64,000 nt of DNA from Enterobacteriaceae bacterium. Its GTDB lineage: Bacteria; Pseudomonadota; Gammaproteobacteria; Enterobacterales; Enterobacteriaceae. Where the stretch lies: the NCBI GenBank assembly GCA_031253755.1, contig JAIRVT010000050.1, forward strand, positions 1 to 64,000, given 5' to 3'. Position numbers and translations under genes: made by a program. The notes beneath the pieces were generated by a model. It was not told where the DNA came from. It did no database searches and saw nothing but the letters and a program-made list of their open reading frames with translations. Positions 50,984 through 60,515 of this stretch are shown here, in pieces. Within the stretch, counting starts at the first letter, position 1; the number at the start of each line of letters is the position of its first letter.

Positions 50984-51124
50984 TCAGTCTTGTGTCAAGC
51001 GGCGGCTTTTGATGCCAAAAATTGCTAACAGTGCCCCCAGCCCCTCACGAGATAAAATGACAATACAATTTACATTGATATGAATCAGAATAGCAGGCTT
51101 ATATCGGGAATAGAGAAAAACCAT
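50984..51124 (-). other. Possible 46-codon reading frame or gene remnant
   Basis: A frame overlapping the LysR 3' end encodes MVFLYSRYKPAI...SREGLGALLAIFGIKSRRLTQD. The end looks like a membrane-protein C-terminus. It may be a remnant of a gene disrupted when the accessory locus entered, or chance. No Shine-Dalgarno was identified. Confidence 0.2.
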
Positions 51125-52019
51125 TATTCATAGCCATAACCCAAGTAATTAAGGTTCTCAGTGGCGCAGGAATATGTTTACGGCTTGGATAATAAATACA
51201 GAAATTAGCGGAAGGATAGTGATCATCAGGGAGCAAACGAATGAGTCTTCCTGCTTTCAGGTGCTCATTCACAAGCGGTTCATAAACAAAAGCAATGCCT
51301 AAACCAGCTTCCGCAGCCTGAAGCATGGCGGTATCAGAATCTACCACTAAATCCCCTTTGACATTTATTTCAGTGATACCCCCTTGCGTATCAAGAAACT
51401 CCCAACGGTAAATTTCGCCGGAGGGAAAGCATCGGTTAATACAGCGGAAATTAATCAAATCTTTTACCGAATCCGGCGTCCGGTTATTTTTTATAAACTC
51501 AGGGCTGGCAACGGGCACAAGGCTCAATTTAGGTCCGAAAGGAATGGCAATCATGTCTTTTGGTACATCCTGAATATAACGAATACCTGCATCAAACCCG
51601 GATTCAATAATGTTGATTTTTTTGTCTGTTGCAAATAATTCCAGCGTAATATCGGGATAGTTTTTTTTGAAGGCCAATAAATAATCCTGAAAAAAGAGTT
51701 CAAGCACTATCCGAGGCATATTTATCCTGATACTCCCTTCAGGTGTTGCCTTATGATCATTAAGGGTATCGATGGCACGGTTGAAGTCATCGAATATCGG
51801 TATGATTTTGGTTAAAAATGCCTCGCCAATGACGGTCAAAGAAAGGCTACGAGTAGAACGGTTCAAAAGCCTGACGCCCAATTTTTCTTCAAGATGATTG
51901 ATGGCATTGGTCAGAGAGGGAGGCGAAAGATTCAATTCTTTCGCCGCTTTTCGGAAACTGCCATGTTGCACAATGAGCATGAATATCTTGATTTGTTGCA
52001 GGTCAGGCATATTTTTCAT
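51099..52019 (-). CDS. LysR-family regulator of the accessory locus
   Basis: A 306-residue LTTR. N-terminal HTH: QQIKIFMLIVQHGSFRKAAKELNLSPPSLTNAINHLEEKLGVRLLNRSTRSLSLT (about 7-60), then a periplasmic-binding-like effector domain. Of the CrgA/YafC-type subgroup (R-L-L-N-R-S-T-R-x-L). AGAGAGAA Shine-Dalgarno. It is divergent from the first aldo-keto reductase with only 100 bp between, the usual LTTR arrangement for control of the adjacent operon. Confidence 0.93.
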   Translation of the reverse strand: MKNMPDLQQIKIFMLIVQHGSFRKAAKELNLSPPSLTNAINHLEEKLGVRLLNRSTRSLSLTVIGEAFLTKIIPIFDDFNRAIDTLNDHKATPEGSIRINMPRIVLELFFQDYLLAFKKNYPDITLELFATDKKINIIESGFDAGIRYIQDVPKDMIAIPFGPKLSLVPVASPEFIKNNRTPDSVKDLINFRCINRCFPSGEIYRWEFLDTQGGITEINVKGDLVVDSDTAMLQAAEAGLGIAFVYEPLVNEHLKAGRLIRLLPDDHYPSANFCIYYPSRKHIPAPLRTLITWVMAMNNGFSLFPI

Positions 52020-52119
52020 TGTTAATTTCTCTCTAATACTGCATTCACTTTATGTTAATAGTGCTGAATGTAAAAGCAGGCTATACCTTTAATATAATTT
52101 AACCCACGAGGAAAAGAAG
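52020..52119. promoter_or_regulatory. Divergent promoter region LysR / aldo-keto reductase
   Basis: A 100-bp AT-rich region between divergent genes that must hold both promoters and the LysR binding site. TTAATAGTGCTGAATGTAAAA contains loosely matching T-N11-A spacing but I cannot single out one operator. Confidence 0.4.
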
Positions 52120-53118
52120 ATGAAAACACGTTATCTCGGAAAAGATAAGTTTTCGGTCTCTGCTTTAGGATTAGGTTGTATGGGAATGAGTTTTGCTTAT
52201 GGCGGGGCAGAAGAATCACAATCCATTAAGACGATTCACGCGGCTATCGATATGGGGATCACTTTCCTTGATACCGCCGAAGTTTATGGTCCTTTTGACA
52301 ATGAAACTCTGGTGGGAAAGGCCATCAAAGGGATGCGTGATAAAGTCCAGATTGCAACAAAATTTGGTTTCCGTATTTTACCCACGGGTAACGGATTGGA
52401 GCGCATGGCCGGTGTTGACAGCCGACCGGAACACATTCGTGAAGCGGTTGAAGGTTCACTGAAACGCCTCAACATCGACACTATTGATTTGCTGTATCAG
52501 CACCGTATTGATCCTGCCGTCCCGATAGAAGATGTGGTGGGCACAATGGCCGCGCTGATTAAAGAAGGCAAAGTTCGCCATCTTGGTTTGTCGGAAGTTT
52601 CCGCCGATACACTGCGGCGAGCCTGTAAAGTGCATCCCATTGCCGCTGTCCAGAGTGAATATTCTCTGTGGTCCCGTGAGCCGGAAAGCCACATTCTGCC
52701 GGTTTGCCGTGAACTGGGCGTAGGTTTTGTTCCTTATAGCCCGCTGGGACGCGGCTTCCTGACCGGAAAAATTACCGATCAATCCGGTTTTGCTAACGAT
52801 GATTTCCGACGGGATCTCCCTCGTTTCCAGCAAGACGCGATGCAAAAAAACCAACAATTGCTCAGTAAATTGCAATCCATCGCCGGAAAATATCACTGTT
52901 CTCTGGCTCAGCTCGCCCTCGCTTGGGTCATGAGCAAGCAAGAGGATATCGTCCCCATTCCGGGCGCGAGGAAAATTGAGCATCTTCAGGATAATGCCGG
53001 TGCTGCCGGGCTACGGATTTCTGGCGGTGATATCCACCTCATGGATTCTATTTTCCAGCCGGAAAATATTCACGGTCTGCGCTATAGCCAAGGTGATCTT
53101 GCACTCATTGATCAATAA
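52120..53118 (+). CDS. Aldo-keto reductase (AKR13-like)
   Basis: NADPH-dependent TIM-barrel reductase of 332 residues. Catalytic Asp51 and Tyr56 in [10 protein letters not shown], Lys in IATKFGF, and His in [10 protein letters not shown]; cofactor segment [31 protein letters not shown] precedes the ATG. GC content is similar to core genes, unlike the later genes of the locus. It may be a general carbonyl reductase controlled by the divergent LysR gene, or the first reductase of the pathway. Confidence 0.93.
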
Positions 53119-58482: not shown

Positions 58483-59235
58483 ATGATTAATCACATCCTC
58501 TTATTTTGGTTTTTATTTATCTTTATCTTTGATATTTATTTTTATGTGAAAAAAAATATCATATTTTATTCGGTTAAATTTAATCGACATTGGAGAAATA
58601 ATTTCTTTAATTTTGCATTAACAAAGTTATTATCATTAGCAATCTTTGTCCCCGTTATACTTTACGCAAGTGCTCATCCTTTAATGAATGTTATTAATAT
58701 TGTAGGAGGAGTTACATCAATTATTTTAGGCGTTGTCGTTCTGGATTTTATAGGATACATTTTTCACAGATTGTGCCATAAAAATAAATTTATGTGGAGA
58801 TTTCATGAAATTCATCATCTTGATGAAGTTCTAGATGCCACGACTGGGTTAAGAGTCCATTTTTTTGAACTAATGCTACATACTTTTTTTAATTTTTTAA
58901 TAATATGGTTGTTAGGGATATCATCAGAATCAGTTCTTGTTCATTCCATTATTGGATTTATTATTGCTATATTTCATCATTCTAAAATTAGACTGCCGGT
59001 TAACTTTGAAAAAAAGTTATCTAATTTTATTACAACACCAAGATTCCATGCTCCTCATCATGATAAAGAGTATAAAAACAATAATTCAAATTATGCATTT
59101 ATATTTCCTGTTTGGGATAGAATATTTAAAACTTATCACGACAAAACATTTACTCAGGACTGGAATTATGGATTGGCTTATAAACAAGATGTTAATATGT
59201 TAGATTCTATATTAAGCCCATTTAAAAAGCATTAG
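58483..59235 (+). CDS. Membrane fatty-acid hydroxylase / sterol desaturase family
   Basis: A 250-residue integral membrane di-iron oxygenase (PF04116). Histidine motifs: H95-x3-H99 (FHRLCHK), H108-x2-HH (RFHEIHH), HH at 165-166 (IFHHSK), H189-x2-HH (RFHAPHH). Three or four hydrophobic segments. The frame opens at 58399 inside the phosphatase gene, but AAGGAAA sits before ATG 58483. Likely hydroxylates or desaturates an acyl chain; strongly AT-rich. Confidence 0.9.
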   Translation: MINHILLFWFLFIFIFDIYFYVKKNIIFYSVKFNRHWRNNFFNFALTKLLSLAIFVPVILYASAHPLMNVINIVGGVTSIILGVVVLDFIGYIFHRLCHKNKFMWRFHEIHHLDEVLDATTGLRVHFFELMLHTFFNFLIIWLLGISSESVLVHSIIGFIIAIFHHSKIRLPVNFEKKLSNFITTPRFHAPHHDKEYKNNNSNYAFIFPVWDRIFKTYHDKTFTQDWNYGLAYKQDVNMLDSILSPFKKH

Positions 59236-59342
59236 CTATTTAGTTGATAGTCATCTTTACAAATATTCATTCATTGCAACAAAACGGAAAAATATTATTT
59301 CACGGCAACATAAATATCTATAACGCTAATAAGGATAACATT

Positions 59343-60515
59343 ATGAATAAATTAACCTCTCCAATACGCATTCCTCTCTATTATGTCAGAGGAGGTACTT
59401 CTACTGGTGTTGTTCTGCTACAAAAAAATCTTCCAGAAAAAAAAGAACTAAAAGAAGAAATCCTTAGGCATATATTTGGTGTGCCATTGACAGAAAAAAA
59501 TGTAGACAATAATAAGCAACTTCATGGACTAGGAAGAGAAACGACGACCAGCAATAAAGCTTTTATTATTGATATAGATTATGAATCTAAAAAAGTAATC
59601 AGTAATTTTGCTCAACTTGAAAGTAATAGCAATTCAGTATCCTGGAGTGTGAATTGTGGAAATATGACATCCTCAATACCGTTAGTTATAATAGATTTAC
59701 TGGAACATGAATTATTAATGCCTGACGGAAAATTGGAAATTTACAATGTAAATACAAATAAAAATATCTTATGTACAATGAAAAATATTTTACCAAGATA
59801 CCAATTATGCTGTATTCCGGGCATTATGGGATATTTTCCTGAAGTTAATGTTTCATTTAAAGATCCTGAATGCTCAAAAACAAAATCACTTTTTCCGACA
59901 GGAAATGTTACTGATGAAATTTATGGCATTACTGTTACCTGCATAGATTTGGCAGTCCCTATGATTATTATTAGTGCAGAAAGTTTAGGACTTACAGGTT
60001 ATGAGAAAATCAATGAAATTGAAAGTAACAAAAGTCTACAGGAATTAATTTTAGAAATCAGAATGAACATGGGTGTTAAAATGGGAATTACTAAGGAAAA
60101 TGGAGAAGTAATGAACGAATTAGATTTAAAAAAATCAATAACGCAGCCGAAAATAGCTATTATTTCTCGCCCTCGATATGGCGGAGATATTAACATTAGA
60201 TATCTTACACCTAAAAGTGTTCACTCATCTATTGCTGTTTCTGGTGGCTGTTGTTTAGCCGCTGCATGTTGCTTATCGGGTACTGTCGCCAGTAAAATAT
60301 ATCATCCTCATAAAATTAATGATAATTCGGGAGCAATTATACGGATTGAACATTTATCTGGAATATCTGACTTTAGTATCATACATAACGGCGAACATAT
60401 AGAATATGCAAGTGTGAAAAGAAATGCGCAAATTTTAATGAAAGGCGATTTTTTTATTTACAATCCCAGTAATGAATTAGCGGATTTCATGTCCCATTAC
60501 AGCATAAACAGTTAA
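59343..60515 (+). CDS. PrpF-family isomerase
   Basis: A 390-residue protein of the PrpF family (PF04303), which includes aconitate isomerases and 4-oxalomesaconate tautomerases. Diagnostic start PIRIPLYYVRGGTSTGVV (RGGTSTG at 16-22), GLGRETTTSNKAFIID, VNCGNMTSS and RYGGDINIRYLTPKSVHSSIAVSGG. AAGGATAAC precedes ATG 59343. No prpB/C/D neighbours, so a double-bond isomerase role in the locus is more likely than propionate catabolism. Last gene of the run, and the most AT-rich. Confidence 0.9.
   Translation: MNKLTSPIRIPLYYVRGGTSTGVVLLQKNLPEKKELKEEILRHIFGVPLTEKNVDNNKQLHGLGRETTTSNKAFIIDIDYESKKVISNFAQLESNSNSVSWSVNCGNMTSSIPLVIIDLLEHELLMPDGKLEIYNVNTNKNILCTMKNILPRYQLCCIPGIMGYFPEVNVSFKDPECSKTKSLFPTGNVTDEIYGITVTCIDLAVPMIIISAESLGLTGYEKINEIESNKSLQELILEIRMNMGVKMGITKENGEVMNELDLKKSITQPKIAIISRPRYGGDINIRYLTPKSVHSSIAVSGGCCLAAACCLSGTVASKIYHPHKINDNSGAIIRIEHLSGISDFSIIHNGEHIEYASVKRNAQILMKGDFFIYNPSNELADFMSHYSINS

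Follow-up and report, generated by a model that had tools for sequence, protein, structure and literature searches.

The 64,000-nucleotide stretch analysed here (referred to below as the window; contig JAIRVT010000050.1) belongs to a 3.0-Mb draft genome that is 83% complete, and between argS and cutC it holds nine genes, one of which encodes an AfsA-like protein. This block is a 9.8-kb gene island of an insect-associated bacterium (Xenorhabdus), with an intact gene set that probably makes and exports a small molecule related to the Streptomyces hormone A-factor; the genus includes Xenorhabdus innexi, as locus L004 of genome G013 shares its sequence with an X. innexi record (L058). The original prediction, made from the letters alone, had proposed that the genes between 51099 and 60515 produce a butenolide, butyrolactone or related compound that is further hydroxylated and isomerised. 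All nine genes named there were present as open frames with the expected Pfam and NCBIfam matches (Table 1), and the seven enzymes inspected retained their family motifs, which we take to be catalytic.

Table 1. Genes of the island between argS and cutC, and the features that delimit it
Feature	Position	Strand	Matches and remarks
LysR-type regulator, divergent from operon	51099..52019	-	PF00126 and PF03466
Aldo-keto reductase 1 (AKR1)	52120..53118	+	PF00248; Asp/Tyr/Lys/His motif residues present
MFS exporter	53171..54334	+	PF07690; best NCBIfam matches Cmx/CmrA and AraJ, both below cut-off
Aldo-keto reductase 2 (AKR2)	54349..55425	+	PF00248
Class A FAD monooxygenase (FMO)	55498..57003	+	PF01494 (FAD_binding_3), 203.6 bits; GxGxxG, DG and GD motifs
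AfsA-like protein	57017..57775 (possible start 57023)	+	PF03756, 62.0 bits (cut-off 24)
HAD-IB phosphatase	57791..58447	+	TIGR01490, 127.3 bits (cut-off 98.3); DxDxT, SGS, K and GDxxSD motifs
Membrane fatty-acid hydroxylase (FAH), di-iron family	58483..59235	+	PF04116, 95.8 bits; boxes HRLCH, HEIHH and HAPHH
PrpF/oxalomesaconate-tautomerase-like isomerase	59343..60515	+	PF04303, 187.6 bits
Genomic island between argS and cutC	50988..60764		Left edge placed to about 20 bases only (50,987-51,010)
Repeat at right island edge	60543..60737		Matches listed include similar copies elsewhere in this genome (G000:C68) and in several other genomes of the genus

Three starts were adjusted. The FMO frame had been listed from 55480 and the ATG at 55498 fits its homologues, while the starts of FAH and PrpF were moved from 58399 to 58483 and from 59244 to 59343, respectively, following the starts of homologues and an AAGGA-type sequence upstream of each. 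The solved sequences nearest to FMO were rifampin monooxygenase and polyketide oxygenases. FAH was assigned at the level of PF04116 only, scoring 79.7 bits against the ornithine-lipid hydroxylase model NF052566 (OlsE, cut-off 475), and PrpF fell below the models for 2-methylaconitate isomerase (TIGR02334, 100.8 bits, cut-off 440.55) and 4-oxalomesaconate tautomerase (NF033377, 217.1 bits, cut-off 440). PrpF does reach the level of a PrpF/LigU-type isomerase, given PF04303 together with the Lys and Cys positions that are presumably functional in LigU and YbhH, and it aligned with the structures of YbhH and oxalomesaconate isomerase (LigU) with SNK and NCGN retained. In all nine genes, each compared with one to three relatives, the proportion of non-synonymous differences (pN, 0.09-0.32) was far below that of synonymous differences (pS, 0.61-0.99, often saturated), which indicates purifying selection over the pairs compared, a measure that covers the whole divergence of each pair and not the window lineage alone.

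In four relatives (L148-L151, among the matches listed) homology with the window stopped at 50,987-51,010 and restarted at 60,765-60,771, and because the flanking homology breaks and resumes around it, the LysR-to-PrpF block was recognized as an insertion of about 9.8 kb. The spacing between argS and cutC in these relatives was 456-907 bases, with about 124-595 unrelated bases where the island sits, and their site is not a letter-perfect empty site. The repeat at the right edge is probably a remnant of an insertion sequence; it holds no long open frame, and stops break the frames of 60516-60765.

The core of the island, a divergent LysR gene followed by AKR1-MFS-AKR2-FMO-AfsA-HAD-IB, is a recurring unit. 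In a search of the family's 392 genomes with a 59-row AfsA profile, nine gave a match at an E-value of 1e-8, six of these with more than 200 bits. One of them, from another genus (G549, locus L174), carried the divergent LysR gene and the six other core genes in the same order as the window, with protein identities of 68% (LysR), 79% (AKR1), 73% (MFS), 87% (AKR2), 63% (FMO), 64% (AfsA) and 54% (HAD-IB), and with one extra gene, a beta-ketothiolase (TIGR01930, 448 bits, cut-off 240.6), placed between FMO and AfsA where the window has a gap of 13 bases. When 20 genomes of that genus were searched, two matched AfsA, and the second copy (G791, locus L181) showed the same order, again with the thiolase between FMO and AfsA, in pieces 65-93% identical to the window. 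Over both ordered copies, protein identity to the window was 54-93%. A third relative (L146, from G022 of the window's genus, among the matches listed) kept LysR-AKR1-MFS with a DNA identity of 74%, and downstream of these only remnants of AKR2 and FMO; the identity of the window's proteins to the orthologues in L174, L181 and L146 was 68-71% for LysR, 79-82% for AKR1 and 73-78% for MFS. The predicted AfsA/HAD-IB locus with reductases, monooxygenase, exporter and divergent LysR gene was thus found again as a unit in two further genomes.

The protein itself is rare: among 30 genomes of the genus four matched, as did four among 369 of the class, and each of these counts takes in the window genome itself as well as one match that is marginal. 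G+C content in the window steps from 41-49% in the LysR-AKR half to 30-35% in the FMO-AfsA half; the step is smaller in the L181 genes measured (40-48% against 37-38%) and there is none in L174. Separate origins of the two halves, which this step might have suggested, were rejected, as L174 and L181 carry both in one order. A cluster of different make-up, AfsA-MFS-FMO-SDR-AMP-ligase-KASIII-HAD-IB, in a further genome of the genus (L011, 2245-10008) suggests repeated entry of AfsA loci into the genus.

To place this unit among AfsA neighbourhoods in general, we compared 87 AfsA loci, comprising 80 from a pattern scan (the best 80 among 87 places confirmed, which biases the sample towards relatives of the four sequences used as seeds), six from other searches and the window. 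The stretches reached up to 10 kb or so on each side, many ending at contig ends and often shorter, and the 24 control stretches were nearly all from Xenorhabdus and had mostly been selected through PrpF or the argS-cutC site, which makes them a weak control. A HAD-IB gene was present in 81 of the 87 loci; measured between midpoints, it lay no more than 6 kb from AfsA at 80 of them and no more than 2.5 kb at 73, as compared with none of the 24 controls; a phosphatase gene nearly always close to AfsA is as expected for a phosphorylated product. Within 6 kb, AKR1-like genes above 250 bits occurred at 29/87 loci (controls 2/24, both from genomes matching the window cluster) and MFS genes above 250 bits also at 29/87 (controls 1/24), and HAD-IB, AKR1, MFS and LysR were all together at 11/87 loci, the window's own being among the 87. 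The grouping is more than chance, given the closeness of HAD-IB to AfsA and the shared core order in two genomes of another genus. Thiolase genes lay within 6 kb at 18 loci and in no control, KASIII-like genes at 22 loci (a count that takes in matches down to 26 bits, some of them weak) and one or the other at 39, which fits a supply of beta-ketoacyl substrate.

FMO was present in nine of the 87 loci, in six of them within 6 kb. An 'FMO-type' AfsA clade was considered and rejected, since the nine loci required eight changes on a quick tree and 133 of 500 shuffles were as low; the scatter suggests repeated gain or loss. Two uncharacterized families without a Pfam or NCBIfam match above cut-off, TQGP and H173, were found at 52/87 and 53/87 AfsA loci, respectively, including the megaplasmid locus of Ruegeria pomeroyi, and no homologue of either was found in the 64-kb window. 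In L012 these two families are represented beside AfsA/HAD-IB at 8329-8940 and 9832-10677.

The AfsA-like protein consists of an N-terminal region of about 85 residues and one hotdog stretch (residues 90-198), while the canonical ScbA/BarX-type proteins had two hotdog stretches in all five cases scanned. It scored 26.1 bits against the ScbA/BarX model NF041195 (cut-off 200), and its L174 counterpart 28.9 bits. All seven streptomycete genomes that hold a window-type AfsA (six Streptomyces, one Kitasatospora) also hold a protein above the NF041195 cut-off, and judged by its sequence the window protein is not of the ScbA/BarX type. The direct equivalence to Streptomyces AfsA on which the original prediction drew was thus not upheld. 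In profile comparison the window hotdog aligned with the second canonical hotdog, with which it has a DH..GM..EAxRQ block in common, and more weakly with the first. Residues K93, N98, D127, H128, H133, G136, E141, R144 and Q145 were invariant in eight sequences found without a motif pattern, and the same-numbered residues were invariant in the 59 AfsA rows, a set in which D127-H133 and Q135-A142 are specified by the scan patterns themselves, so that their conservation there is partly built in. Glu141 falls at the position of the GVLxVEA Glu of hydroxyacyl-ACP dehydratases, in matches with marginal E-values. The nearest row on the quick tree was a Burkholderia locus (L015; SH-aLRT 94, not starred), which has AfsA-HAD-IB-AKR with an oppositely oriented LysR gene downstream.

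The FAH-PrpF pair was found with AfsA in the window only (0 of the 86 other AfsA stretches), and it was not found beside AfsA in L174-L178 or L181, the two ordered copies included. Without AfsA nearby, the pair occurred in a genome of another genus (G494; L128 is among such loci), whose congener G604 has a similar FAH, and in G027, G010, G028 and G001 of the window's genus (among the matches listed), with shortened frames in G001. In G028 it lies between genes of an integrative-conjugative element (ICE; L135, 8016-9953), namely TIGR03759, PilL2, the STY4534 family and topoisomerase III. PrpF without FAH was seen in L129, L139, L140, L141, L142 and L145, and the contig ends there in L137 and L138. 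By eye, PrpF is next to an amino-acid-type ABC transporter set in L133, L134, L139, L140, L142 and L145, which hints that PrpF proteins of this subfamily may serve general metabolism. The simplest reading is that FAH-PrpF is a mobile two-gene unit that would have landed downstream of the AfsA operon, and it may or may not tailor the AfsA product. Because the pair is absent from other AfsA loci and stands alone elsewhere, the predicted further hydroxylation and isomerization, in the same pathway as AfsA, is weakly founded.

Taken together, these results lead us to favour, with modest confidence, a mobile biosynthetic cluster that makes and exports a butenolide- or furan-like molecule derived from dihydroxyacetone phosphate (DHAP), with FAH-PrpF as a separate add-on. 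In the proposed pathway, the single-hotdog AfsA would esterify DHAP with a beta-ketoacyl thioester; ring closure of this ester would give a phosphorylated 2-acyl-butenolide, from which HAD-IB would remove the phosphate. One or both aldo-keto reductases could then reduce a keto group or the ring alkene, and FMO could oxidize the acidic dicarbonyl carbon or the ring, the product being exported by the MFS protein and the operon controlled by LysR. In the sister copies the beta-ketothiolase would supply beta-ketoacyl-CoA; the window has no thiolase, and its substrate would therefore come from fatty-acid synthesis or from other thiolases of the genome, three of which are full-length. As to the role of the product, passages of a study published in 2020 report that in R. 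pomeroyi insertions in the AfsA gene and its neighbours abolish a density-dependent diffusible killing (PMC7426152), and by analogy a short-range antagonist seems more likely than an A-factor-type hormone.

Several observations weigh against this interpretation. Neither a thiolase nor a KASIII-like gene was found in the 64-kb window, and KASIII-like genes were also present in 2 of the 24 controls. LysR alone is not enriched near AfsA, because its frequency (above 150 bits within 6 kb, 17/87) is not above that in whole control stretches (4/24). Since FMO does not cluster on the AfsA tree, the oxidation step may differ between loci. In L181 the AKR2 and AfsA frames are interrupted as assembled, and the thiolase frame probably is too. 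The N-terminal region of the window AfsA has no family assignment (no Pfam match), no published demonstration of DHAP use by this AfsA subfamily was found in the papers searched, and the analogy with killing is weakened by the absence from the window of both partner proteins that are conserved in the R. pomeroyi type.

Were FAH and PrpF genuine tailoring enzymes, the window would make a hydroxylated, isomerized compound, which we consider unlikely. The two genes lie on the operon strand with gaps of 35 and 107 bases and an AAGGA-type sequence before each start, their G+C content continues the low trend of FMO-AfsA-HAD, pN is well below pS in both, and they are the only copies found in this genome; however, the pair is missing from all other AfsA stretches examined, occurs alone or beside ICE genes elsewhere, and is represented by PrpF without FAH at six loci. 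The likeness in G+C content of the pair to AfsA was not used as a sign of common origin, the pair being low in G+C elsewhere too. It is improbable to a similar degree that the single-hotdog protein is another acyl-transfer or dehydratase-type hotdog enzyme and the product not derived from DHAP. The 26 bits to ScbA/BarX and the single hotdog would agree with this, as would the marginal matches to solved sequences, which were four hydroxyacyl-ACP dehydratases (E-values 0.005-0.89) and one designed helical barrel (0.06), but the profile match to the second canonical hotdog with its common block, and the phosphatase gene almost always near AfsA, point back to AfsA-type chemistry.

That the product is a quorum-type signal, sensed by the LysR protein or by an unlinked receptor, is doubtful, although a little less so. 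AfsA products of actinomycetes are signals, the divergent LysR gene adjoins the operon, and passages of PMC7426152 state that the R. pomeroyi cluster is not transcribed properly unless its afsA gene is functional, the authors being undecided there between an antimicrobial and a signal. Against a signal, no ArpA-like TetR receptor gene lies by the synthase, LysR being the only regulator among the island open reading frames (ORFs; no genome-wide search was made), and a TetR-like ORF recognized by eye beside an MFS-like gene (40092-40679, minus strand) is 10 kb outside the island. Moreover, LysR-AKR1-MFS survives in L146 while the downstream genes are remnants, and no convincing conserved LysR box was found between LysR and AKR1, an inverted repeat seen by eye in the window being only half conserved in L146. 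An inactive cluster in this strain, a truncated transplant that has lost its thiolase, is very unlikely. The thiolase is missing from the 13-base gap between FMO and AfsA, and the copy in L146 is decayed and that in L181 interrupted; on the other side stand the nine open frames, the motifs of seven enzymes, pN well below pS, and the full-length thiolases elsewhere in the genome.

A-factor, SRB, avenolide and the methylenomycin furans are butenolide- or furan-related product types. It is conceivable, if quite unlikely, that the island represents a new enteric butenolide/furan class, in which a single-hotdog AfsA with an N-terminal domain would join DHAP to beta-ketoacyl-CoA fed by a dedicated thiolase in place of ACP chains, FMO and the two aldo-keto reductases would lead to a compound outside these four types, and in this strain the captured mobile hydroxylase-isomerase pair would modify it further.

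Other features of the window were noted in passing. A repeat of about 100 bases between the island and cutC (60953-61054) is interspersed, with at least the many copies in genus genomes that are among the matches listed, and L148-L151 lack it at this position. A 178-residue ORF that lies between murJ-like and argS genes (48316-48852, minus strand) has no Pfam or NCBIfam match, and a 503-residue ORF (36994-38505, minus strand) appears by eye to fuse an aminopropyltransferase-type methylase domain to an S-adenosylmethionine-decarboxylase (SpeD-like) domain. An integrase-like ORF, again by eye, near the left end (1423-2649, minus strand) suggests another mobile element. A promoter-like scan gave 44 sites, at the level of shuffled sequence (45.0), and terminator-like sites (13) were little above it (9.3, sd 3.2).

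AfsA-type loci are widespread outside actinomycetes, and at least one of them, that of R. pomeroyi in the cited passages, is needed for killing competitors (PMC7426152). The window and its two ordered relatives offer a compact version, carried by enterics and eight genes long when the thiolase is counted, and laboratory genetics can be done in Xenorhabdus, so that the chemistry is directly testable with regard to DHAP use, thiolase feeding and action as toxin or signal; the split between core and add-on shows which genes to express first.

An enteric AfsA gene has been published before, as passages on the Pantoea ananatis element ICEPan (PMC4458695) report an AfsA gene as mobile cargo, like that of the window, next to what the description calls phosphonate- and tetracycline-starter-like proteins, a comparison made by description only; what the present analysis supports well is the core, the hydroxylated and isomerized part being weak. 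In the literature searched, most subscription papers lying outside it, neither the ordered LysR-AKR-MFS-AKR-FMO-(thiolase)-AfsA-HAD-IB cluster nor a product made by it was found described, and for AfsA of the R. pomeroyi or enteric type no structure of a product came up. The original statement that no product had been described accordingly stands for structure within that literature, but the related R. pomeroyi locus has a published phenotype, and the ICEPan gene has been reported in an enteric. Passages on Xenorhabdus list antiSMASH 'butyrolactone' regions (PMC12383660, PMC10676414), naming no AfsA gene, and no gene-level match to the window was made; a region in PMC12383660, from the same genus as the window, also carries a 'rifampicin monooxygenase' annotation, and the label in PMC10676414 cites an Aspergillus terreus paper and may mean something different. 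Elsewhere, parts of published accounts describe an AfsA/HAD-IB pair of Chromobacterium as quorum-regulated (PMC12114271) and list an AfsA/hydrolase/P450/MFS cluster in a Pseudomonas survey (PMC8719888).

The logic of AfsA, DHAP and phosphatase has been set out in passages of PMC7756420 and PMC5735094. For gladiofungin of Burkholderia gladioli, an AfsA domain was proposed to attach DHAP, followed by ring closure and dephosphorylation (PMC7756420, in part), so that both that system and the window are Gram-negative cases in which AfsA-type chemistry goes together with a candidate phosphatase, although the gladiofungin AfsA is the terminal domain of a polyketide synthase and the island has no polyketide synthase gene. 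According to the same passages a GlaE E10080A point mutant kept the wild-type profile; we do not lean on single residues. ScbA, BarX and AfsA of Streptomyces have the PF03756 hotdog and a DH..GM.L.EAARQ block in common with the window protein, but they pass NF041195 with two hotdogs, while the window protein has one, about 26 of the 200 bits and an unassigned N-terminal region, and its island has no TetR-type gene. Comparison with the 'GBL' killing cluster of R. pomeroyi DSS-3 relied on its megaplasmid gene SPO_RS21570, which we infer from its place between two hypothetical genes to be the SPOA0342 of PMC7426152. Two conserved hypothetical proteins and a tautomerase of the R. pomeroyi cluster have no counterpart in the window, and the window differs in its FAD monooxygenase, second aldo-keto reductase and FAH-PrpF pair. 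The R. pomeroyi AfsA is likewise a single-hotdog protein, 33% identical to that of the window, and both systems have HAD-IB, LysR, aldo-keto reductase and MFS genes near AfsA.

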